In this document: one piece after another, positions 51,155 to 62,609 of the stretch
How the letters are laid out: the number at the start of each line of letters is the position of its first letter
How positions within the stretch are numbered: position 1 is the first letter of the stretch
Source: Bremerella sp. P1
GTDB lineage: Bacteria; Planctomycetota; Planctomycetia; Pirellulales; Pirellulaceae
Assembly: GCF_028748185.1 (NCBI RefSeq)
Contig: NZ_CP118164.1
Coordinates: forward strand, 682,001 to 746,000
Direction: 5' to 3'
Length of the DNA stretch: 64,000 nt
Program-made: the position numbers and the translations under genes
The notes under the pieces: model-generated
The model's database searches: none
What the model saw: only the letters and a program-made list of their open reading frames with translations
What the model was told of the DNA's origin: nothing

Positions 51155-54100
51155 ATGTCGACAGACGCTTCATCCAGCATGACCACGGCCAAGGCAGTCC
51201 CAACTAAATCGGTTGGCACAGACTCGATCCGTCGGAAGATCAATCGCACCCGGCGGAGTGTCAAACTGGCCGAACTGGTTGCGGGTATCCTTTTGTTCGC
51301 CGCCGGTTCGCTGCTGTTTCTTTTAACGCTGGCCGTCATCGATCATTGGATCATCGGTCTCAACTTCGTAGCTCGTTTGATGGCCTTTTTGGTCTACGTA
51401 GTCGCGGCGGTTGGATTCCTATGGATCTACGTGGCCCCCCTGCTCTTCCATTCCATCAATCCGCTTTACGCGGCCAAGATGATCGAGCAAGGTCAACCGA
51501 CGTTGAAGAACAGCCTGCTCAATTTCATGTTCCTCAGTCAGAACAACCAGGGAACGCACAAGGCCGTTCTCGATGCGGTAGAAACCCAGGCAGCTTCCGA
51601 CATCTCGTCGCTGTCGCTGGAACATCTGGTCGACTACTCGAAAGCGATCCGCATCGGTTACGTCCTGGCGACATTGGCGGTGCTGTTTGGCCTTTATACC
51701 GTTCTGTCGCCGAAGAATCCGCTGCAGACGGCTGCCAGAATCGCGATGCCATGGAACGACATTGCCCGGCCTTCGAGAGTGAAGATTGTCGACGTCCAGC
51801 CAGGTGATGCGAGCATCTACCAAGGGCAGGAAATTGATGTCATCGTCAAGCTGCATGACGTTTCCGATGGAGACCGCCTGGAGGTCATCTACTCGACCAA
51901 AGACGGACAACTTGTCGATCAGGCGATTCCACTCGTGCTGAGCGATGATGGATTCGACTATCGAGCCAAGCTGAGCACCTCGGAGTCGGGCATTCAGCAA
52001 GACCTGACCTACCGCATTGAAGCCGGCGACGCATCGACGCGTGACTTTGAAGTCACCACGCTGGAAGCACCCTCGATTGACGTGGCCTCGCTGCGTTACG
52101 ACTTCCCCTCTTACACCCAGGAAGCCTCGTGGGAACAGCAAGGCGATGGTCATATTCGCGCCCTCGAAGGAACGATGGTAACCATCCGCGCAATCAGCAA
52201 TCGCCCAATCAAGAAGGCGTATATCGAATTCGATCCGGTGGCCGATTCCCCGATCGTTTCGCTCAATACGATTCCACTGCAAGTCAGCTCCGAAGAACCG
52301 AATAAAGCTTCCGTCCGCTTCCCCTTGGAAATGAACGACGCTGGTACCGCCGGCAAGTTCCGCTCGTATCAGATTCGCTTCCGAACCGACGACGGCGTGC
52401 TCAATCCGCACCCGGTGCTGTACCACATCGACGTGGTGCGTGACCTGCCGCCGGAGATCGAATTCCTGGAACCAACCGCTTCGGAAGTCGAGCTGCCACT
52501 GAACCGCAGCCTGGATGTTCGTCTGCGGGCCATTGATCCGGACTACGGCATCCGGCAAATCCGGGTCGACGGCACTATCAGCCAAGAAGGTGGCCCACGG
52601 CTGAAAAAGACGATCAACGCATCGATCCTCGAACAGCCCAAGTCAGGCCAGGTGATCGAGAACTGGAAGCTGGTTCCCAAAGAGCACAAGCTGGAAGTCG
52701 GCGATGTCGTCAAGCTGATCGGCGTGGCCGAAGATACGCGAACCGATTTCGCTGGCAACCTGAAGCCGAATATCGCAAATACCAATCCACGCACGATTCG
52801 CATCGTCGAGCCTGTCGCCGACCAGCAACAAGGCAAGTCGGAAGAAGAAGGCTCGACCGACGACGAAGGCAAACAGTCGGACGAACAGAACAAGTCCGAT
52901 GACTCCGGCGAGCAAGGAGACCAACAAGGCAAGGGTTCCGAGTCAGGCGACTCCGGCGACATGTCGGAAGGCGAGAAAGGCAACGAAGAGAACCAAAGCG
53001 AAGGCAACTCCGGTGGCGACTCGAACCAAGAGGGTATGAAGGGCAAATCCGACAAACCCCAGGAAGGCGAGAACAACGGCGAGTCGGAAGATCAGCAGGA
53101 AGGCCAAGGCAGCGGAAGTTCGTCGAAGAAAGAACAAGGCGACGAGAACCAAGAGCCTCAACAGGGTAAGGGTTCGCAGCCGCAAGAAGGCGACCAGCAG
53201 TCAGGCGAGCCCCAGGAAGGGGATCCGCAATCCGGCGAAGGAGGAATGGGCCAATCGCAGCAGGAAGGTGGCGACCAAGATTCGCAAGCCCAAGCCAATG
53301 GCGGCAAAGGGGGCGAAGCCTCTCAGGCCTCCGACGACCAACAGCGTGAACAGAACCAATCCGATCAAACAGGCCAACCCAATGGTAGCGGCACCGGCAA
53401 GGCAGGTGACCCGAACAAGGGTGGCGAACTGCAACAAGGTGACGCTTCCACGCAGCCGAACGAGAACTCGACCGTCGAGCGACAACAAGATCCGGTCGCT
53501 TCGGATGGTTCGCAAGATGGTGATGCCTTCGAGCGAATCCAGGACTATCTGAACGAGAAACAGAAACAACAGGGGCAGCAACCCTCGCCTGAAAACAGTG
53601 GTCAGCCTAATCCTCAACAACAAGGCGAAGGAGAAGGTTCCGGCACGGGTCAGAAGCCCGAAGAGGGAATGCAAGACGGTGCAGGTGGTGACAGTCAAAA
53701 GAACCCGGCGGACGCGCAAGGGCAACCAAGCGACGGTCAGAAGAACCAAGGCCAGGGAAGCAAGCAAGGTTCCGACGAACAGTCGACCGGCGAGCAAAAG
53801 GGATCAGAGCCCAACGAGGGTGGTATCGACAACGGCATGAAGCCCGAGAACTCCACCGGCGGCGAGAACGCAACCGGCGAGCAAAAACAAGAAGGCGAGC
53901 CCGGCACCACCGACCAGAACGACGGCATGTCGTCGGAACGCAACACGCAGAATGACGAACAAGGTGCCAGCGACAACCAAGGGGGCGCCAAGCAAGAAGA
54001 TCAAGAGGCCAATCCATCGAGCGACTCCGAGCGTCCCGGTGATACGGGCAAGGGAGACAACACCAACTCCGGAGCTGGCTCGGAAGCCAGCGAAGGTGAC

Positions 54101-55015
54101 AAGGGAAGCCCTGAGTCCAGCGAGAAGGCCAACAAGCAAGGCGAGAACAATATGAAGCCGGACGATCGCCCCAGCGACGAGCAAGGCGATCAACCGAAGT
54201 CTCCTTCCAACAGCGACAAACAGTCGGACAGCAAGGGAGAAACCCGCGGCGATCAAAGTGGTGGCGGCGGCTCCGGCGGCGGCCAAGCAGCTAAGCAGGC
54301 CGGCAACGACAGCGCCGGCAGCACCAGTGCTGCCGACCAGGGTGCCGGTGCAGCCAATCAACAAGGCGAAGGGGAAACAGGCAAAGAAGGAGGCGATGGT
54401 CCTCAAGCCGATCAGCAAACCGGTTCCAGTAGCGATCAGCAAGGAGAAGGTTCGAGCAAAACGAATTCGCCCGCTGGCCAAGAGGCCGGGATGCAAGGCG
54501 CTGAATCGGAAAAAGGCCCGAGCGATTCCCAGCAATCAAACGATCCACAGCAAAGTGGACGAGGTCCGGGCAATTCGGCGATTCCTCAAGGAGGCGGCTT
54601 GGAAGGGAACAACACACCGCAGAACTACGACGGTCCACGTGTTGAGCCTGGCGAAGACGCCGCCAATCTGGAATACGCCAAGAAAGCGACCGATATGGTC
54701 CTGGACGAACTGCAACACCAAGATACGCCCGACCAGGAAATGCTCGACGACTTGGGCTGGTCGAAAGATGACTTCGCTCGCTTTGTTCAGCGCTGGAAGC
54801 AAATGAAGCAAGCTGCCAGCAGCGAAGATGCTCAGGCCCAGCAAGATCTCAACGACGCCCTGCGTAGCCTGGGATTGTCGCGCGGTGAAGACACAACGCG
54901 TCGTGTGGAATCGCGCGAAGCAGCCGCAGGTGGTTCAAGCGATACGCAGCGCAGCAGCCCGCCTCCGTCGTTCATGGAACAATATCGGGCTTATCTCAAG
55001 GGGGCTTCTCAATAA
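51155..55015 (+). CDS. large membrane protein with about 600-residue low-complexity Q/E/G/S/N tract
   Basis: 1286 residues from the ATG at 51155. Two or three helices near residues 37-95 and one near 166-187, then a large beta-rich extracytoplasmic region (about 190-550; RVKIVDVQPGDASIYQGQEIDVIVKLHD resembles Ig-like strands). From about 553 to 1160 the protein is almost only Q, E, G, S, N, D, K and P, with recurring QQGE, QEGD and GSG units. The last 125 residues are ordered (EDAANLEYAKKATDMVLDELQHQDTP, WSKDDFARFVQRWKQMKQ). The layout recalls DUF4175-type proteins of planctomycetes and alphaproteobacteria. Function unknown. Confidence 0.7.
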   Translation: MSTDASSSMTTAKAVPTKSVGTDSIRRKINRTRRSVKLAELVAGILLFAAGSLLFLLTLAVIDHWIIGLNFVARLMAFLVYVVAAVGFLWIYVAPLLFHSINPLYAAKMIEQGQPTLKNSLLNFMFLSQNNQGTHKAVLDAVETQAASDISSLSLEHLVDYSKAIRIGYVLATLAVLFGLYTVLSPKNPLQTAARIAMPWNDIARPSRVKIVDVQPGDASIYQGQEIDVIVKLHDVSDGDRLEVIYSTKDGQLVDQAIPLVLSDDGFDYRAKLSTSESGIQQDLTYRIEAGDASTRDFEVTTLEAPSIDVASLRYDFPSYTQEASWEQQGDGHIRALEGTMVTIRAISNRPIKKAYIEFDPVADSPIVSLNTIPLQVSSEEPNKASVRFPLEMNDAGTAGKFRSYQIRFRTDDGVLNPHPVLYHIDVVRDLPPEIEFLEPTASEVELPLNRSLDVRLRAIDPDYGIRQIRVDGTISQEGGPRLKKTINASILEQPKSGQVIENWKLVPKEHKLEVGDVVKLIGVAEDTRTDFAGNLKPNIANTNPRTIRIVEPVADQQQGKSEEEGSTDDEGKQSDEQNKSDDSGEQGDQQGKGSESGDSGDMSEGEKGNEENQSEGNSGGDSNQEGMKGKSDKPQEGENNGESEDQQEGQGSGSSSKKEQGDENQEPQQGKGSQPQEGDQQSGEPQEGDPQSGEGGMGQSQQEGGDQDSQAQANGGKGGEASQASDDQQREQNQSDQTGQPNGSGTGKAGDPNKGGELQQGDASTQPNENSTVERQQDPVASDGSQDGDAFERIQDYLNEKQKQQGQQPSPENSGQPNPQQQGEGEGSGTGQKPEEGMQDGAGGDSQKNPADAQGQPSDGQKNQGQGSKQGSDEQSTGEQKGSEPNEGGIDNGMKPENSTGGENATGEQKQEGEPGTTDQNDGMSSERNTQNDEQGASDNQGGAKQEDQEANPSSDSERPGDTGKGDNTNSGAGSEASEGDKGSPESSEKANKQGENNMKPDDRPSDEQGDQPKSPSNSDKQSDSKGETRGDQSGGGGSGGGQAAKQAGNDSAGSTSAADQGAGAANQQGEGETGKEGGDGPQADQQTGSSSDQQGEGSSKTNSPAGQEAGMQGAESEKGPSDSQQSNDPQQSGRGPGNSAIPQGGGLEGNNTPQNYDGPRVEPGEDAANLEYAKKATDMVLDELQHQDTPDQEMLDDLGWSKDDFARFVQRWKQMKQAASSEDAQAQQDLNDALRSLGLSRGEDTTRRVESREAAAGGSSDTQRSSPPPSFMEQYRAYLKGASQ

Positions 55016-55123: not shown

Positions 55124-56761
55124 ATGCACGATACAAACATCGTCAGCCGCATGGCACCTCATGTCCCTCGCTACCTCGTTCCCTTTCATCCCAAGAGCGT
55201 CTCGCATTACTTCACGGACGTTCTGATCATCGGTGGTGGTATCGCTGGCCTGCGGGCCGCTTTGGAAATTGATCCGAAGCTCTCTGCTCTGATTCTGTCG
55301 AAAGAACAGATCCAGGAATCGAACAGCAACTATGCCCAAGGTGGAATTGCCGGCGTCCTGGATGATGACGACCGGTTTGAAGATCACGTCGCCGATACGA
55401 TCACGGCCGGCGGAAGTCTGTGCGATAAGGAGGTCGTTGACCTTGTCGTGCACGAAGGGCCAGAGTGTATCCGCGAGCTGATTCGCTGGGGAACCGAGTT
55501 CGACCGAGTCGACGGGCGTCTGGCACTCACGCGAGAAGGTGGGCACGGTCGAGATCGCATTGTCCATGCGTTGGGTGATGCCACCGGCAAAGAGGTCATT
55601 CGCTCGATCGTCGAGATGGTGCGTTCACGTCGCAACATTCAAATCTGGCAGAACGAGTTCACCCAGGACCTGATCGTGCATGATGGCGTCTGCCGCGGGG
55701 CACTTGCTTCGGATGAAAAGCATGGTCGAACCCTGATCTGGGCCAAGCATACGATCCTGGCTGCCGGCGGCGTCGGTCAGATCTATCGCGAATCAACCAA
55801 TCCCAGCGTGGCGACCGGCGACGGCATTGCCATGGCACTGCGTGCCGGTGCCGAAATGCGTGATATGGAATTCATGCAGTTCCATCCGACCGTTCTCTAC
55901 ATTGCCGGTAGTAGCCGTAGCTTGATTACCGAAGCAGTGCGTGGCGAAGGGGGGCACCTGGTCGACCGCAACGGCTATCGGTTCATGAAAGACTACGACC
56001 CGCGTGGCGAGTTGGCTCCCCGCGATGTCGTTTCGCAGGCAATCGTTTCGCAGATGGAACTGACCAAGCATCCCAATGTGTATCTGCGGCTCGATCATCT
56101 GGATGCCGATTTCGTCCGCAATCGTTTCCCCAGCATCTATGCCGGATGCAAGAAGTTTGGCATCGATATCACTTCCGATCGCATTCCTGTTCGCCCAGGT
56201 GCGCACTACATGATCGGCGGCATCTCGGTCGATAACAACGGAGCCACCACGATTCCCAACCTTTGGGCGGCAGGGGAAGTCACCAGCAGTGGGCTGCACG
56301 GGGCCAATCGTTTGGCATCGAACAGTTTGCTGGAAGGGCTCGTATACGGTAAGAGGGCCGGTCGCAATGCGTCCCTAGGGGCACTTGCGATGCCGGACCG
56401 CTTCGAGGCGATCAATATTCAGCATCCCGTGGCCGAGCCGAGCGAACCGCTCGACTTGGGCGACATTCGCAACTCGCTTAAAAGCTTGATGTGGCGAAAC
56501 GTGGGCGTACGGCGTGATGCCCGCGGGCTCGAGGATGCCATCGATACGATCGAAGCCTGGTGCCGGTACGTCCTGCCCCAGCAGTTTGACCACCCTAGCG
56601 GCTGGGAACTGCAAAACATGCTGGTCGTGGCCCAAGTTATGGCCCGGGCAGCCTTCTTGCGAGAGGAATCGCGAGGCGTTCATTTGCGAATGGATTTCCC
56701 CCAGACCGACGACGCCAACTGGAACCATCACCTTCCGCTACGGTTATCAGACCTTCCGTAG
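55124..56761 (+). CDS. nadB: L-aspartate oxidase
   Basis: Oxidises L-aspartate to iminosuccinate with FAD, first step of bacterial NAD synthesis, in the cytoplasm. 545 residues: FAD-binding GGGIAGL at 37-43, SNYAQGGIAG, the EGGHGRDRIVH catalytic loop, RSLITEAVRGEGG and HGANRLASNSLLEGLVYG, all typical. The length is slightly above the E. coli enzyme because of an N-terminal extension; the ATG at 55151 is a possible alternative start. No quinolinate synthase or nadC is seen in the window, so nad genes are dispersed here. Preceded by the large low-complexity gene, 108 bases upstream. Confidence 0.9.
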   Translation: MHDTNIVSRMAPHVPRYLVPFHPKSVSHYFTDVLIIGGGIAGLRAALEIDPKLSALILSKEQIQESNSNYAQGGIAGVLDDDDRFEDHVADTITAGGSLCDKEVVDLVVHEGPECIRELIRWGTEFDRVDGRLALTREGGHGRDRIVHALGDATGKEVIRSIVEMVRSRRNIQIWQNEFTQDLIVHDGVCRGALASDEKHGRTLIWAKHTILAAGGVGQIYRESTNPSVATGDGIAMALRAGAEMRDMEFMQFHPTVLYIAGSSRSLITEAVRGEGGHLVDRNGYRFMKDYDPRGELAPRDVVSQAIVSQMELTKHPNVYLRLDHLDADFVRNRFPSIYAGCKKFGIDITSDRIPVRPGAHYMIGGISVDNNGATTIPNLWAAGEVTSSGLHGANRLASNSLLEGLVYGKRAGRNASLGALAMPDRFEAINIQHPVAEPSEPLDLGDIRNSLKSLMWRNVGVRRDARGLEDAIDTIEAWCRYVLPQQFDHPSGWELQNMLVVAQVMARAAFLREESRGVHLRMDFPQTDDANWNHHLPLRLSDLP

Positions 56762-56941
56762 GGACTTTTCATCAATCCTACCGGGATACGAACGAACTTC
56801 GGCAAGTCTTAATCAGACCGGAGTTTATGTCATCCGGCGCTTACGTTACACTACGTGTTTTGATCCTGGTTAGCGAGGTGCCCCATGTTCACGGCGGCCC
56901 CTCCCCTGCCTTTTCGGACAGCCTGAGAAAAACGAACTGCT

Positions 56942-57724
56942 ATGGTTGATCACAACTCCGATCTGCCGATGATCGAGGCCGACCGGCTTTCCAAATTCTA
57001 TGGAATCTTTGCCGCCTCCCGAGAAATCAGCTTCAAGGTCCATCGTGGCGAGGTGGTGGCGTTTCTCGGCCCCAATGGTGCCGGCAAAAGCACGACCATG
57101 AAGCTGCTTACCGGGTATCTATCACCAAGCGAAGGGGTTGCCCGGATCGCCGGCTACAACATGGCCACCCAGCGATTGCAGGGCTCGTCGGTGCTGGGAT
57201 ACCTTCCCGAAAACGGTCCGCTCTACCCGGATGCCACTCCGCACAGCTTGCTCTGGTTCATCGGCGAGGCCCGCGGCATGAGCCCGGCCAAACGCACCGA
57301 ACGCATCGATGCCGTGGTGGACCTGTGTAACCTGCATACCGTGCTGTACAAGCCGATCTCGAAGCTTTCCAAGGGTTACAAGCAGCGTGTCGGCATGGCT
57401 CAAGCCATTTTGCATGAACCAGAAGTGCTGATCCTGGACGAACCAACGTCCGGACTCGACCCGAATCAAATCCGTGGCGTGCGTGACATGATTCGTCGCC
57501 TGGGACAAGAGAAGACGATTCTGCTCTCGACACACATCTTCCAGGAAGTCGACGCACTGGCGACCCGGGCCATCGTGATCAACGAAGGTCGACTCATCTA
57601 CGACGGAAGCATTGATGGAATGAAGCAACCAGGCGAAACCCTGGACGACGCTTTCTATCGGATGACCAAAGGGGTAAACGCATTGACGACCCCAGAAGGT
57701 GAAGAAGCGACCCCGGATAGCTAA
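56942..57724 (+). CDS. ABC transporter ATP-binding protein, GldA-like
   Basis: 260 residues: Walker A GPNGAGKSTT, signature LSKGYKQRVGMAQAI, Walker B VLILDEPTSGLDP and the histidine switch LLSTHIFQEVD. Together with the following two genes it forms the ABC-ATPase, fused permease/auxiliary and DUF4340 arrangement known from gliding-type (GldA/F/G) systems and from many non-gliding bacteria, where the substrate is unknown. Gap to the next gene is 71 bases, with no terminator. Likely exports an envelope component. Confidence 0.9.
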   Translation: MVDHNSDLPMIEADRLSKFYGIFAASREISFKVHRGEVVAFLGPNGAGKSTTMKLLTGYLSPSEGVARIAGYNMATQRLQGSSVLGYLPENGPLYPDATPHSLLWFIGEARGMSPAKRTERIDAVVDLCNLHTVLYKPISKLSKGYKQRVGMAQAILHEPEVLILDEPTSGLDPNQIRGVRDMIRRLGQEKTILLSTHIFQEVDALATRAIVINEGRLIYDGSIDGMKQPGETLDDAFYRMTKGVNALTTPEGEEATPDS

Positions 57725-57795
57725 ACCGGCCTAACATCAGCGGCCCGTTTGAACGAAACATTTTCCCAACTGAAATAACAACACGGTAACAAGAC

Positions 57796-60756
57796 ATGTC
57801 CGTCGAGTTTTACGCCAAGTTAGCAACGCTCGTACTGTTCGATCTATTGTTCATGTTGGCGTTCTTCATCCTGCTCATTCCGCTTTCGGTAGCCAAGAAG
57901 GCTTCGTATGCCGTGATGAAGCGGAACTTCAAGTCGTACTTCAGCAACCCAACCGGGTACGTCTTTCTCGCGATCTTCGTTTTGCTGACCTCGATGGCGG
58001 CGTTCTGGCCCCATGAGTTCTTTAACGCGAACCTGGCGAATCTCAACGAACTCAATTCCCAGATCACGCTCATCATGCTGATCTTCATCCCGACCATCAC
58101 CATGGGTTTGTGGGCGGATGAAAAGCGACTGGGGACCGACGAATTACTGTTAACACTACCGGCCACCGACTTTGACATCGTGATCGGTAAGTACTTGGCG
58201 GCGGTATCGGTGTTTAGCGTCTCGTTGGTCTTCTCGCAGCTCTGTAACTTTCTGGTGCTGGACGCGCTGTCGCTCGGCTCGCTCGACGCAGGCCTCTTTA
58301 TCACCACTTACATCGGCTACTGGTTCATCGGCTTGACGATGATTGCTTTGGGGATGGTGGCTTCGTTCATGACGAACAACCTGACCCTGGGCTTTGTGCT
58401 GGGTATTTTGGTGAACGCTCCTTTTGTTCTTTTGCAATACTCGGACGCGTTTGTCACGCAAAACGAATGGGTTGGCTTCCTGAGCGAAGCGAGTATGGGC
58501 AAGCAGTTCGCGGACTTCGGTCGCGGGGTGATCTCGATCAGCTCGCTGGCGTACTTCCTGATGATGACGGTCGTCGGTATTTACCTGGCAATGGTCCTCA
58601 TCGGTCGACGTCACTGGCTGGGGGGTAAAGATGGCGAGTCCCTCTTGGGGCATTACCTGATCCGCTCGACCTGTCTGCTGGCGATCGCGTTCGCAGCCAC
58701 GCTGTTCTTTGTGATGAATGACATCCGCTGGGACTATACCGAGAACGGTACCAGCAGCCTGCTTCCTCAAACCAAGCAGTTGGTTCGTAACCTCTCGACC
58801 GACCAGCCCGTGCGTATCGAAGCGTTTGTCAGCGGCAGCGTTCCGAAGAACTACGCCCAAACCAAGCTCGACTTGATTAACTACCTAAACGAGTTCCGTG
58901 CGTTGAGTGGCTCGAAGATCAACGTGGTGATTCACGACGGCCTGGAACCGTTCAGCGAAACGGCCGACATCGCTCGCGAGACCTACGGCATTCAGCCCCG
59001 CGAGTTGATCTCGCAGGAACGTGGAGCGTTGGCTCAGGAAGAAGTCATCCTGGGTGCCGCCGTTCAGCGTGGCCTAGAGAAAGTAGTGATTCCATTCTTC
59101 GACAATGGTGTTCCCGTCGAGTACGAACTGGTTCGTTCGATTGGTACCGTTTCAGAGAAGAAACGTAAACGCTTGGGCGTTCTGCAAACCGATGCTCAAT
59201 TATTCGGCGGGATTCAACAGAACCCACTGGGCGGCTACCAGAACATTCCACCTCAGCAGATCATTACGGAATTGGAGAAGCAATACGACGTGATTGAAGT
59301 TGATGCCTCGTCAGCGATCGATCCAAGCTCGTACGACGTGCTGCTTGCCGTTCAGCCGTCGAGCCTGTCGCCTCCGGCGATGAAGAACTTCGTCGACGCA
59401 ATCAAAGCAGGCATTCCGACCGCCGTCTTCGACGACCCGGCTCCGACCCTCATGGGACAAGCCACGCCAATCGGCCAGGACAAGCGCAACCCATTCCCCG
59501 GCCGACGTCCGCCCGAACAAAAGGGAGACATTCGACAGCTGTGGGACCTGCTGCACATTTCGATGCCTGGCAAGCAATTGCCAACCGATCGCTACTATCA
59601 ACCGTACATCGTCTGGCAGGATTACAATCCGGAAGTTCGTCTACGCAACCTGGGGGCGATCACCAAAGAGTACGTCTTCGCCGATCGCTTCACTCCCGGT
59701 GCGCCTGAATACGAAGCGTTGAACAACGAGGTCGACGTGACGCAGGATCTTCGCCAGATGCTCTTCCTGTTCGCAGGGGCCATCAAGAAGCAGCCAGGCT
59801 ACCCGAAAACAATGACCTTTACCCCGCTGGTCACCACCGGTACGAAGATCGGGACAATCACGTTTCAAGACCTAAGTAGCGCCCGGCAGGATCAGCGACG
59901 CATCGAAGCAAAGCGGCAACCGGTTTATGGCCCCAACGGAGGTGCACCTGATCCGTTTGTCTTAGCAGCCCTCATCCAAGGCACACCTCCTTCGGTCGCC
60001 AAGAACGCCACCAAGGCGGAAGATGCTGCTGACGCCGAAAAGAAGGAAGGCGACGAAGCAGAAACGGATAAGCCAGAAAAGTCCGATGGCTCAATCAATG
60101 TGGCCATGGTCAGCGATATCGACCTGCTTCATTCGGTCTTCGTGCAACTGCGTGCTCAAAGTGCCGACAGCTCTGAAATGCAGATCGATAACACGAACTT
60201 CCTCTTGAACCTGATCGACAAGCTGGCCGGTGACGACGAGTACATTCCCATCCGTAGCCGAAGTGAACCAATCGCTCGCCTTGGGCTGATGGAACGCTTA
60301 ACGGAATCGGCCAAGACCGAAGGGGACAAGGCTCTGCGAGAAGCGGCACTCAACGCTCAGGCACAGCAAGAACAACTGGAGAAAGAACTTCAGAAGCCGC
60401 TGGAAGATCTGAACATGAAGATCAACACGCTCAACGCTCGAGCCAACCAAGGGGGCGAGATTCGTCCTGAAGACCTGCGTGAAGTTCAGGCACTGCAGTT
60501 GGAACTGGCCCAGCGTCAGGCAGACGTTCAGAACAAGCAGCGTGCCGCCGTTCAAAAGATCGAAGCCAATCTCGAGCGTGAACAAGAGCGTATCACGCGT
60601 GAGTTGAATCGTAGGATTCTGTACTACCAGAACCAGGTCAAAACCTTGGCCGTTGCCCTTCCGCCAATCCCACCGATCGTGATCGGCATCGTCGTCTTTG
60701 TCATTCGACGCTTGAAGGAACGTGAGGGATTGTCGAAAGACCGAATTATCAAGTAG
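57796..60756 (+). CDS. fused ABC-2 permease (GldF-like) and GldG-like protein
   Basis: 986 residues. The N-terminal 300 residues are an ABC-2 permease with six or so helices (LLFMLAFFILLIPLSVAKKA, YVFLAIFVLLTSMAAFWP, ADEKRLGTDELLLTLPATDFDIVIGKYLA). After a helix about 290-310 (LAIAFAATLFFVMNDIRWDYTENG) comes a GldG-type ABC_transp_aux domain, TDQPVRIEAFVSG..YAQTKLDLINYLNEFRALSGSKINV through NIAMVSDIDLL, and a coiled coil near 860-940 before the last helix. In Bacteroidetes GldF and GldG are separate; fusion in one chain is common in planctomycetes. Acts with the ATPase at 56942. Confidence 0.85.
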   Translation: MSVEFYAKLATLVLFDLLFMLAFFILLIPLSVAKKASYAVMKRNFKSYFSNPTGYVFLAIFVLLTSMAAFWPHEFFNANLANLNELNSQITLIMLIFIPTITMGLWADEKRLGTDELLLTLPATDFDIVIGKYLAAVSVFSVSLVFSQLCNFLVLDALSLGSLDAGLFITTYIGYWFIGLTMIALGMVASFMTNNLTLGFVLGILVNAPFVLLQYSDAFVTQNEWVGFLSEASMGKQFADFGRGVISISSLAYFLMMTVVGIYLAMVLIGRRHWLGGKDGESLLGHYLIRSTCLLAIAFAATLFFVMNDIRWDYTENGTSSLLPQTKQLVRNLSTDQPVRIEAFVSGSVPKNYAQTKLDLINYLNEFRALSGSKINVVIHDGLEPFSETADIARETYGIQPRELISQERGALAQEEVILGAAVQRGLEKVVIPFFDNGVPVEYELVRSIGTVSEKKRKRLGVLQTDAQLFGGIQQNPLGGYQNIPPQQIITELEKQYDVIEVDASSAIDPSSYDVLLAVQPSSLSPPAMKNFVDAIKAGIPTAVFDDPAPTLMGQATPIGQDKRNPFPGRRPPEQKGDIRQLWDLLHISMPGKQLPTDRYYQPYIVWQDYNPEVRLRNLGAITKEYVFADRFTPGAPEYEALNNEVDVTQDLRQMLFLFAGAIKKQPGYPKTMTFTPLVTTGTKIGTITFQDLSSARQDQRRIEAKRQPVYGPNGGAPDPFVLAALIQGTPPSVAKNATKAEDAADAEKKEGDEAETDKPEKSDGSINVAMVSDIDLLHSVFVQLRAQSADSSEMQIDNTNFLLNLIDKLAGDDEYIPIRSRSEPIARLGLMERLTESAKTEGDKALREAALNAQAQQEQLEKELQKPLEDLNMKINTLNARANQGGEIRPEDLREVQALQLELAQRQADVQNKQRAAVQKIEANLEREQERITRELNRRILYYQNQVKTLAVALPPIPPIVIGIVVFVIRRLKEREGLSKDRIIK

Positions 60757-60818
60757 CTCCAGCTACTACCCCAGATATCCGCGAACATTTTTACGCACTA
60801 GTTGCAAAGCAATTTGTC

Positions 60819-62609
60819 ATGAGTGAAGCCGTTAAAACGTTGATCTTTCTGGCCGTGGCTGTCGTCATGGGAGGCTTGGCCTACGTCTCGCGCCCTGCAC
60901 CGGCAACCAGTGCACCGGAGGAGGAAGTCAATCAGCCCCTCTTCCCGACTTTTACCGATCCGTTGCAAGCCGAGTCGATGCAGATTACCCGCTTCGATTC
61001 CGAGCGTGGTCAGATCCGCCGCTTTGAAGTCGCCAACACCAGCGACGGTTGGCAGATCAAGTCCAAAGGAGGCTACCCGGCCAACGCGACCGAGCACATG
61101 ACCAAGGCCGCTAACAGCCTGGTCGACTTGAAGGTGCTGCGGATCGTCAGCGATCTTCCCGGTCAGCAAGCGGAATATGGTGTCGTGGAACCCAACGCCA
61201 ACGCTATTTCGGCCGCCGACGAAGGGGTGGGCCAGATGGTCACCATCGAAGACAAAACCGACAAGACACTCGCCAACCTGATTGTGGGTGCGGCCGATAA
61301 AGAAGATCCACAATTGCGGTACGTGCGTGTTCCAGGCCGCGACCGAATCTACCTGGTTCGCTTGGACCCAACCGTCTTCTCGACGGAGTTTTCCGACTGG
61401 ATCGACAAGGACCTGTTGCAGCTCAATCCATTCGATGTCGCTTCCTTGCGTTTCCGCAACTACACGATGCAGGTTGCCAACAACCAGATTCAAGCGTTGC
61501 CGCAAATGGATGCCACCGTGGCCTTCGACGCAGAGCGAAGCAGTTGGAGCCTTCTCAACCTGAAAGAGGCAGCCCCTGGCGATCAAACGCAATTGGCCGC
61601 CGCCGAGTTGCCTGCCGATGAAAAGCTGAACACGGAAAAGCTCGACGAGATTCGCAACTCCCTGGATGACTTGACGATTGTCGACGTTTTTCGCAAGCCG
61701 GAACAATTAGCGGAAGTTCTCAAGCAGGGCGAAGGGCTTAAAGGCCTCAAGCAGGAAGACCTTCCGACGCTGGTTTCCAACGGCTTCTTCCCATACCTGA
61801 TGCCAGGCGAAACCGAACCGCAGTTGGTGGGCCTGAACGGCGAACTGGTCATCGAAACCCAAGACGCGATTCGTTACCGACTTTTATTCGGTCTCGAAAA
61901 GCTTGGGGGTGATAACAAAGACCAGAAGCAGCAGTACCTCTTCGTCCAAACCGAACTAGTCGACGAGATGTTGCCGCCGCCGATGCTGCAAGAGGTTCCC
62001 GAGATCAAGGAAGGGGAAGACCAAGACATCGAAGCCCAAGCCAAGGCCCGCGAGAAGATTTTGCAAGACAACGATGCCAAGATGACCGAGTATCGTGAAA
62101 TGAAGAACCTGGCCACGCGAAAGATCTACGAGCTGAACACACGTTTTGCCGACTGGTATTACGTGGTGAAAGCCGAGGACGTTGCCAAGATCTTGCTCAA
62201 TCGTGATCAGTTGGGCGTCCCAATCAATCAACCCACCAACCAGCCCAGCGGAGTACCAGGACGCGTCTTCCCAGGCGGTCCAGGCACGGGCATGATGCGA
62301 CCACCTGCTGCCCAGCAGCCGATGACTCAGCCAATGCCTCAATCGGAACCAATGGATAAGCCGGCTTCTGAGGAGCCAGCCGATCAACCGCCAGCCGATC
62401 AACCGCCAGCGGGCGACAAACCAGCCGGCGACGAAACTCCTAAGGAAGAGGCTGCTACCAAAGAAGAGCCGGCTGAAACTCCAAGCGAGCCAATGAAGCC
62501 AGCCGAAGATATGGCCGAACCAGCAACTGAGGAGAAACCGGCCGAAACCGAAGAAACCCCAGACGCAACGCCAGAAAGCGACACGCCGGCCGAGGAATCT
62601 GCGGAATAA
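60819..62609 (+). CDS. DUF4340-domain protein
   Basis: 596 residues. One N-terminal membrane anchor (TLIFLAVAVVMGGLAYVSRP) and a long extracytoplasmic region with the DUF4340 pattern: RRFEVANTSDGWQIKSKGGYPANATEHMTKAANSLVDLKVLRIVSD, then DPTVFSTEFSDWIDKDLLQLNPFDVASL. The C-terminal 130 residues are a Pro/Glu/Ala-rich tail with tandem units PADQPPADQPPAGDKPAGDE and many PAE. It follows the GldFG-like gene by 62 bases and almost certainly belongs to that ABC system as its periplasmic partner. Function of DUF4340 is not established. Confidence 0.85.
   Translation: MSEAVKTLIFLAVAVVMGGLAYVSRPAPATSAPEEEVNQPLFPTFTDPLQAESMQITRFDSERGQIRRFEVANTSDGWQIKSKGGYPANATEHMTKAANSLVDLKVLRIVSDLPGQQAEYGVVEPNANAISAADEGVGQMVTIEDKTDKTLANLIVGAADKEDPQLRYVRVPGRDRIYLVRLDPTVFSTEFSDWIDKDLLQLNPFDVASLRFRNYTMQVANNQIQALPQMDATVAFDAERSSWSLLNLKEAAPGDQTQLAAAELPADEKLNTEKLDEIRNSLDDLTIVDVFRKPEQLAEVLKQGEGLKGLKQEDLPTLVSNGFFPYLMPGETEPQLVGLNGELVIETQDAIRYRLLFGLEKLGGDNKDQKQQYLFVQTELVDEMLPPPMLQEVPEIKEGEDQDIEAQAKAREKILQDNDAKMTEYREMKNLATRKIYELNTRFADWYYVVKAEDVAKILLNRDQLGVPINQPTNQPSGVPGRVFPGGPGTGMMRPPAAQQPMTQPMPQSEPMDKPASEEPADQPPADQPPAGDKPAGDETPKEEAATKEEPAETPSEPMKPAEDMAEPATEEKPAETEETPDATPESDTPAEESAE

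Follow-up and report, generated by a model that had tools for sequence, protein, structure and literature searches.

Within the window, the whole stretch of 64,000 nucleotides of the Bremerella sp. P1 genome that was analysed, an open frame on the forward strand (window:51155-55015, +) runs from an ATG at 51155 to a stop codon ending at 55015 and encodes a membrane protein of 1286 residues, whose MSTD.. start, picked by position, is kept in frame at eight congener loci. Hydropathy, an AF2 model and an ortholog alignment set off residues 1-553 (51155..52813) as an N-terminal part that combines membrane segments with beta-rich sequence, while an alignment of 40 orthologs together with a model delimits a helical C-terminal module (residues 1166-1286; 54650..55012), which closes with a tail placed by the register of paralog tails (residues 1270-1286, PPSFMEQYRAYLKGASQ; 54962..55012). 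The long tract between them can be divided into a first stretch predicted from its composition to be disordered (residues 554-784; 52814..53506), an island found by profile and putatively helical (residues 785-803, GSQDGDAFERIQDYLNEKQ; 53507..53563), a presumably disordered stretch 2a marked out by dN and profile search (residues 804-983; 53564..54103), a conserved low-complexity block recognised by profile (residues 984-1075; 54104..54379, with its core 1016-1075 at 54200-54379) and a presumably disordered stretch 2b set off by profile search (residues 1076-1165; 54380..54649), all on the + strand. Downstream and also on the + strand lie nadB, encoding L-aspartate oxidase (55124..56761; TIGR00551, 566 bits against a cut-off of 453), and, as identified by Pfam/NCBIfam, genes for a GldA-like ATPase (56942-57724; NCBIfam match below cut-off), a GldF/G-like permease-auxiliary protein (57796-60756; NCBIfam matches below cut-offs) and a DUF4340 protein (60819-62609).

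The first-pass annotation had reported a translated Q/E/G/S/N low-complexity region of about 600 residues between ordered domains, and this description is borne out. Judged by composition, the tract runs from residue 541 to residue 1171; with working limits of about 554-1170 it comprises 617 residues, of which 121 are G, 95 Q, 76 S, 69 E, 58 D and 42 N (75% together), with three aromatic residues and no Cys. Its sequence entropy is 3.39 bits, against 4.06 for residues 1-553, and an Uversky <H> of 0.29 against a boundary of 0.46 makes it hydrophilic enough for disorder. It is flanked by conserved parts, with a mean column identity over 40 orthologs of 35% on the N-side (residues 1-553) and 45% on the C-side, and its translation is attested by the open frame and by selection (dN/dS 0.076 against the congener L036 at dS ~1.2). 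A comparison set of 523 proteins, taken from greedy ORF lists of the flanks that include spurious ORFs, contains two with such a tract of at least 300 residues, and both are contig-cut copies of this protein. L063 and L064, two orthologs truncated at contig ends, were left out of the 40 and kept in the set of 523. All 40 full-length family orthologs have the tract, at 554 +/- 81 residues (301-699) and with changing composition. A composition-called tract of at least 417 residues is found in 20 of 20 distant relatives, although three of these loci (L180, L181, L183) have odd frames or tract limits and L183 lacks a match to the N-part; in some other families of the class, the tract exceeds the roughly 300-700 residues seen in this family.

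Across its stretches the tract has dN/dS of about 0.07-0.16, indicating purifying selection; these are Nei-Gojobori estimates with strongly diverged synonymous sites, suited to comparing regions rather than to use as absolute values. Residues 804-950 have the highest dN among the regions compared, and stretch 1 (554-784) has indels within the genus. Tract length had been suspected of varying by slippage in a highly repetitive sequence, and neither idea survives. Tandem Repeats Finder returns two arrays of about two copies, the longest homopolymer is four residues and the longest one-codon run three; moreover, not one indel separates the 617 codons from those of L036, and slippage is accordingly rejected. 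Against a more distant congener (L001) there are 14 small indels. Over the whole protein, the comparison with L036 gives one indel of one residue at 87.7% identity, in contrast to the paralogs L077 and L092, which differ by 12 indels and 40 residues at 83.7% identity.

The N-terminal part has TM-like segments by hydropathy at residues 44-62, 75-93 and 167-185, followed by about 350 residues that are mostly predicted strands; a low-confidence AF2 model (pLDDT 41.6) likewise has helices up to residue 196 and strands beyond. Pfam DUF4175 (PF13779) matches at 318-472 with 12.9 bits for the whole protein and 14.4 for the N-part, below the gathering cut-off of 27.3; 15 of the 40 orthologs match it at E<=0.01 (best 2e-6), and two other places in the same genome exceed the cut-off. 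Searches for solved relatives gave nothing convincing (best E 0.22 in one and 0.029 in another). TIGR02302 (aProt_lowcomp, NCBIfam), which we take to be an alphaproteobacterial low-complexity family described as TM helices plus Gln/Gly-rich low complexity, matches neither the window protein nor any of the 40 N-parts at E<=0.01, and none was found in the protein's own genome in a search whose control likewise gave no match. At the level of architecture alone, the window protein does share with TIGR02302 the N-terminal TM helices followed by a long Gln/Gly-rich low-complexity region, and with DUF4175/TIGR02302 together the helices, a beta-rich part and such a tract. To our knowledge, the island, the block and the C-terminal module do not figure in the descriptions of these two families. 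The protein is best read as a probable inner-membrane protein remotely like DUF4175, an annotation also carried by an AdvA-type division protein (PMC7481262).

Conservation of exact residues, which the first-pass annotation had named as an argument for a folded domain, turns out to be local. It is present in the island at 785-803 and, in half of the family sequences, in the block at 1016-1075. Of four other pieces searched, all beyond residue 619, profiles of 620-725, 812-950 and 1080-1165 matched 0, 0 and 0 of 37 non-genus family orthologs and a fourth piece (A, island region) matched 3 of 37. The island takes the family form HDGExFERIxEYLexq and mostly lies 0.3-0.5 of the way through the tract. 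A regular expression matched it in 32 of 46 orthologs, and a profile seeded on those 32 reached 44 of the 46 in one round, all above the 506 shuffled or reversed decoys. One genus record, L139, is apparently the same as L001; it was dropped from the counts of 46 and kept among the nine genus members used for dN/dS.

The surprise of this protein is the constrained low-complexity block. Its core is an ungapped run of 60 G/S/N/D/Q residues, in which Ala is the sole hydrophobic residue type in the window's copy, and its profile gives scores of 75-120 bits in 23 of 46 family orthologs. No reversed, shuffled or neighbour-protein decoy scores above 8.5 bits and a genus-only profile gives the same 23, so composition is rejected as the cause of the matches. 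The block is found in 42 of 199 family genomes, with one match each among the 26-29 candidates scored per search. Where present, it is more conserved than the folded-looking part: among the 14 orthologs outside the genus that carry it, the core is 61% identical to the window, against 40% for the N-part and 46% for the C-part, and among five close congeners its w of 0.020 is the lowest of eight regions. Synonymous divergence (pS) is slightly lower in the block than in the N-part, at 0.53 vs 0.61 among five congeners and 0.62 vs 0.67 among nine. Between genera, the synonymous third bases of the block agree at 0.40, with 0.41 predicted from codon usage, which argues against recent transfer and against constraint at the DNA level; both were considered and neither is supported, the synonymous sites being strongly diverged. 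Since the block is absent from 23 of the 37 non-genus family orthologs, it is not essential to the basic role of the protein. An all-against-all comparison for a second shared block in the 23 block-less family sequences gave mainly the helix-like island; a few long low-identity matches among them scored about like the best decoy (38.9 bits) and were taken as compositional.

The C-terminal module, with the consensus LGWTxxDLxxFxxRW ... EALRSLGLRP, aligns in 40 of 40 family orthologs and is found in 102 of 148 class genomes, again with one match each among the candidates scored. Its AF2 model is all-helical and poor (pLDDT 61), and its matches to Pfam are scattered and weak, SAM_SMF appearing in 10 of 40 at E<=0.1 (best 7.1e-5). 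The tail lies in the same register as the P..Y...I..YF..LA tail of the paralog loci, which it resembles with an AUC of 0.91-0.995. A matrix trained on paralog tails alone places 17 of the 20 distant orthologs and 18 of the 40 in the family above the 99th percentile of 741 background tails, and 20 of 20 and 30 of 40, respectively, above the 95th; the 22 family tails below the 99th percentile, 10 of them below the 95th, imply that family tails have diverged or are partly chance likenesses. A tail pattern occurring in 12 of 277 proteins vs 0 of 523 is at most descriptive, having been written after the tails were seen.

Among 24 paralog loci, the tail is present in 22, mostly with MoxR/DUF58/BatA genes, a count that comes from an iterated matrix with leave-one-out as control; of 24 matches, L085_0 and L095_2 were discounted as fortuitous in building the second matrix, and L097_8 was kept in it despite an apparently shifted register. 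The N-part profile matches a protein in 23 of the 24 loci, with 82-219 bits; at L078, a spurious greedy ORF had displaced the DUF4175-like frame. The tail is carried by the N-part-like protein itself in 17 loci and by a separate protein in five (L076, L078, L079, L080, L089), with no tail found in two; the modules fused in the window protein thus occur apart in those five. These DUF4175-like paralogs, in MoxR/DUF58/BatA/GATase-like loci, share with the window protein the N-part match and low-complexity stretches, and their C-terminal tail motif resembles its tail. Unlike them, the 40 family orthologs, the window gene included, lie outside such loci and have their own C-terminal module, the island and, in half, the block. 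No MoxR, DUF58, BatA or GATase-like gene was found within 9 kb in the fetched flank of any of the 40 family orthologs, and a Bat partner would therefore have to be encoded elsewhere. Among the 20 distant relatives, BatA adjoins in four and a GATase-like gene in six, and MoxR and DUF58 in none.

Given the retained tract, its conserved ends, the purifying selection, the recurrence of the island in 44 of 46 orthologs, the block and the likeness of the tails, we lean towards reading the tract as a tether, long and disordered, that belongs to an inner-membrane protein and would present putative docking islands and the tail in the envelope. Three TM segments would anchor the protein in the inner membrane, with the beta-rich module next on the outer, periplasmic face; hydropathy suggests that the C-terminal ~1100 residues are periplasmic. 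A hydrophilic chain of some 300-700 residues, predicted from composition to be disordered, would then hold the conserved helical module and tail at its far end. Envelope partners, probably BatA/vWA-type proteins, may dock at the tail, the island and the block, and the tether could allow the modules at the membrane and those at its far end to cooperate across tens of nanometres.

A folded block would be compatible with such a tether. It is conceivable, though we think it unlikely, that residues 1016-1075 are a cryptic domain that folds, perhaps on binding, into a polyproline-II bundle, a beta-solenoid or a metal-dependent roll; the low w, the 60 ungapped residues and 11 invariant S, G and D columns in a 17-row alignment speak for it, but a core block with no hydrophobic residue other than Ala argues against a hydrophobic core. 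We judge it very improbable that the tract is a polymer segment exposed at the surface that phase-separates or forms filaments, a suggestion for which its extreme low complexity and Q/G/S/N richness might be cited. The tract has neither the aromatic stickers nor the repeats by which such low-complexity proteins are recognised, aromatics staying below 1.4% in all 40 orthologs and tandem repeats being nearly absent; further, it sits between TM-like segments and a conserved C-terminal module. A neutral filler, a long linker for which sequence and length hardly matter, is no more plausible: it would account for pieces unrecognisable beyond the genus, but not for the low dN/dS, the indel-free comparison with L036 or the long tract in each of the 20 distant relatives.

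Alternatively, the functional unit could be the protein together with nadB and the GldA/GldFG/DUF4340 transporter, the Bat-like tail being a relic. nadB is indeed the commonest neighbour: it lies downstream in the same orientation, within 650 bp, in 18 of the 40 family loci and 11 of the 20 distant ones, and GldFG and DUF4340 follow in 17 of the 40. However, nadB went undetected in 22 and GldFG in 23 of the 40 family flanks (some cut by contig ends), GldFG appears in just one of 20 distant loci, five distant relatives adjoin GATase-like/BatA genes instead, and it is not evident how an NAD-synthesis enzyme would connect with an envelope tether; such a unit seems doubtful.

The tether arrangement has parallels, offered here as analogies without a claim of homology. 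TonB and TolA are periplasmic force transducers with an inner-membrane anchor, a long reach and a C-terminal module, an arrangement resembling that of the window protein, for which, unlike them, no motor partner is seen. The linker of FtsZ is cytoplasmic and far shorter than this tract. It is nevertheless likened to tract and tail here, as a disordered linker that ends in a conserved partner-binding peptide and modulates binding (PMC12607630). The block recalls constrained disorder, a class defined on yeast (Bellay et al., 2011, PMC3188796), in which both disorder and residues are conserved; the block is conserved where present, its disorder being judged from composition. It departs from that class as a 60-residue low-complexity block of a bacterial membrane protein, conserved above the folded-looking part.

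More tentatively, the block could be a new recognition element, free of hydrophobes and, where present, conserved above the folded parts around it because a partner reads it residue by residue. The P..Y...(I/V/F)..Y(F) tail, for its part, might be a docking tag common to the class, bringing DUF4175-like tethers, whether whole or divided among separate proteins, to envelope machines of the MoxR/DUF58/BatA kind. Among the matches listed in literature searches on DUF4175, TIGR02302, planctomycete MoxR/DUF58/vWA and the Pirellula MoxR operon, as far as those entries extend, there was no description of the protein, the block or the tail. Sequence of low complexity is usually masked, as if one such filler could stand in for another; an exact 60-residue block that, in the half of the family sequences carrying it, evolves more slowly than the folded-looking part, with its synonymous codons randomised, makes the question of what reads a featureless sequence a testable one. 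The tail motif, moreover, provides a way into the DUF4175-like/BatA envelope loci of the whole class, which are little characterised. In another family, five of eight fetched loci have a GATase-like gene upstream in the same orientation, at a distance of 100-242 bp, and in four of them BatA precedes it.

What is uncommon in the protein encoded at window:51155-55015 (+) is that a low-complexity block in it is exactly conserved. Its open reading frame, starting with an ATG and lying in a single 6.96 Mb contig whose gene content suggests a Pirellulaceae-like planctomycete, specifies 1286 residues with three transmembrane-like segments by hydropathy (44-62, 75-93 and 167-185). The N-terminus is rich in Arg/Lys as far as the first segment, which, by the positive-inside rule, would place the last ~1100 residues on the outer side of the inner membrane. 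The protein falls short of the membership cut-off of DUF4175 proper and is most likely a remote DUF4175-like inner-membrane protein. The low-complexity tract (residues ~554-1170) is as the first-pass annotation described it, except that it is hardly 'highly repetitive': there are just two two-copy arrays, the longest homopolymer is 4, the longest one-codon run is 3, and synonymous codons are mixed. Length change by slippage, also proposed there, is contradicted by this scarcity of repeats and by the congener ortholog L036, to which the tract aligns at 84.3% identity over 617 residues with zero indels; a filament or condensate reading is unsupported. With a second congener ortholog, L001, identity in the tract is 57.9%, and 14 of 15 counted indels fall there. 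In this genome slippage plausibly has its place instead at the repeats of L077:7069-10731 (-), a DUF4175-like paralog with a long run of QQPGQ-type repeats that differs from congener L092 by 12 indels (40 residues).

Across genomes, with family, order and class as grouped by the genome search tool, residues 1-556 found a match in 60 of 60 family genomes, the weak best match in a few probably being a paralog. Forty loci were fetched, most contig-cut or short ones being omitted; with the window and L001 they made 42 copies, and removal of two cut by contig ends left 40 full-length orthologs of 974-1404 residues. A tract of low complexity is present in all 40, 554 residues long on average (s.d. 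81; 301-699), with aromatics at or below 1.3% and a net charge of -0.21 to +0.03 per residue, while the dominant residues differ (G, Q, S, E, D, N, K, P). Mean column identity is 35% in the N-part (1-553) and 45% in the C-terminal module (1166-1286). This module occurs in 102 of 148 class genomes, with one match each among the candidates scored (weakest E 5e-4), and in 8 of 149 phylum genomes sampled, all 8 from the window's class. Twenty distant loci, hand-picked from the 102 for family coverage and long contigs, have composition-called tracts of 417-1315 residues, three of them with odd frames or limits.

Genus profiles of five tract pieces, searched against 37 non-genus orthologs, matched 14 with residues 951-1080, 3 with 726-812 and none with the other three. 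The block within the former (984-1075, core 1016-1075) was found with a genus-only profile already in 23 of 46 sequences (the 40 orthologs plus six further congeners); after iteration these carriers scored 75-120 bits, against 8.5 bits for the best decoy of any round, and the profile reported none of the remaining 23. It is absent from 23 of the 37 non-genus family orthologs. Identity to the window in the 14 non-genus carriers averages 61.0% for the core, 39.9% for the N-part and 45.5% for the C-part; among these block-bearing sequences the core is closer than the N-part in all 14 and than the C-part in 13, with one equal. Synonymous sites are strongly diverged and Nei-Gojobori dN/dS values serve only to compare regions: against L036 they are 0.076 (tract), 0.055 (N) and 0.044 (C). 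Within the genus (five close members/all nine genomes) the core is lowest at 0.020/0.065; the N-part has 0.070/0.102 and the C-part 0.076/0.090, and residues 804-950 reach 0.137/0.138. The core's pS is slightly lower than that of the N-part but still high (0.525 vs 0.611 for five, 0.620 vs 0.671 for nine), none of its 60 columns is gapped in the genus alignment, and third bases at conserved four-fold codons of the block agree at 0.40, vs 0.41 expected from codon usage. The block is present in 42 of 199 family genomes and 23 of 68 genera, with one match each among the candidates scored; 39 of the 42 sit in open frames that are 1095-1440 residues long, and the frames of the other three are shorter (989, 394, 246). 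It also appears at 43-56 bits in 3 of the 20 distant loci, from two other families of the order.

A helix-like island (785-803) beats all 506 decoys in 44 of the 46 sequences in a search whose profile was seeded with 32 of them, picked by a pattern. It exceeds the decoy maximum of 4.8 bits in three distant loci (L186-L188, same order); the other 17 gave no match or none above that maximum.

The tail (1270-1286) resembles a C-terminal motif of paralog loci. Further DUF4175-like places in the same genome (L076-L079) lie with MoxR and DUF58, plus BatA and/or GATase-like genes. With 20 more loci taken from weaker residue 1-556 matches, at least one of these four markers occurs in 23 of 24 paralog loci and MoxR, DUF58 and BatA together in 14; the N-part profile matches a protein in 23 (82-219 bits). 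One protein ends in P/x..Y...(I/V)..Y(F/Y)..(L/I)(A/G) in 22 of the 24, the N-part-like protein itself in 17 and a separate one in 5 (256-354 residues in L076, L079, L080 and L089; 1279 in L078). Two of these, L076:6183-7145 (-) and L079:12360-13424 (+), are short, secreted-looking proteins with Gln-rich stretches and the same tail as sister-locus DUF4175-like proteins; judged by sequence, they are split versions of the same architecture. In leave-one-out with similar members removed, all 22 of these tails exceeded the 99th percentile of background. A matrix trained on them alone was then applied against 741 background tails. Of the 20 distant orthologs it scored 17 beyond the 99th and all 20 beyond the 95th percentile (AUC 0.995); of the 40 family orthologs, 18 and 30 (AUC 0.913). 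A previous matrix that still included two chance members had passed 12 of 40 family orthologs at the 99th percentile (AUC 0.88); in its controls 0.75% of shuffled tails and 2 of 40 internal segments passed.

MoxR, DUF58, BatA and GATase-like genes were detected within 9 kb in none of the 40 family loci. Upstream of the distant orthologs, where neighbours were checked against Pfam at locus L170, GATase-like genes occur in 6 of 20 and BatA in 4, one family (f2, 8 loci fetched) holding all four BatA and five GATase cases. The tail and these distant neighbours suggest that the protein may be part of a Bat-type system.

A flexible tether with docking elements is the best-supported explanation, and we consider it slightly more likely than not. 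The disordered chain would keep the C-terminal module and tail at a distance from the membrane; by general polymer scaling, ~600 residues would average ~25 nm in span and reach up to ~200 nm when stretched. TonB/TolA (PMC12204202) and the linker of FtsZ together with the peptide at its C-terminus (PMC12607630) are parallels in mode of action, not descent. As leads only, AdvA of Acinetobacter baumannii, an essential protein of cell division, carries a DUF4175 annotation (PMC7481262), and a TIGR02302 protein is listed in a table in the part on CenR of a paper on Rhodobacter sphaeroides (PMC9275681).

Around the gene, a co-directional nadB, a gene of NAD synthesis, lies no more than 650 bp downstream in 18 of 40 family loci and in 11 of the 20 distant ones; GldFG with DUF4340 lies downstream in 17 and 1, respectively. 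In the window, nadB and then a GldA/GldFG/DUF4340 transporter cassette occupy 55124-62609, an order and strand kept in many family genomes. A membrane protein at window:45099-46415 (-) resembles bactofilin over an N-terminal stretch, scoring 24.0 bits to Pfam Bactofilin, below the cut-off of 27.9. Upstream of the gene for the tract protein, window:48232-50930 encodes two adjoining leucine-rich-repeat proteins (Pfam LRR_14, LRR_4, LRR_8), and a few relatives have related LRR genes in their flanks.
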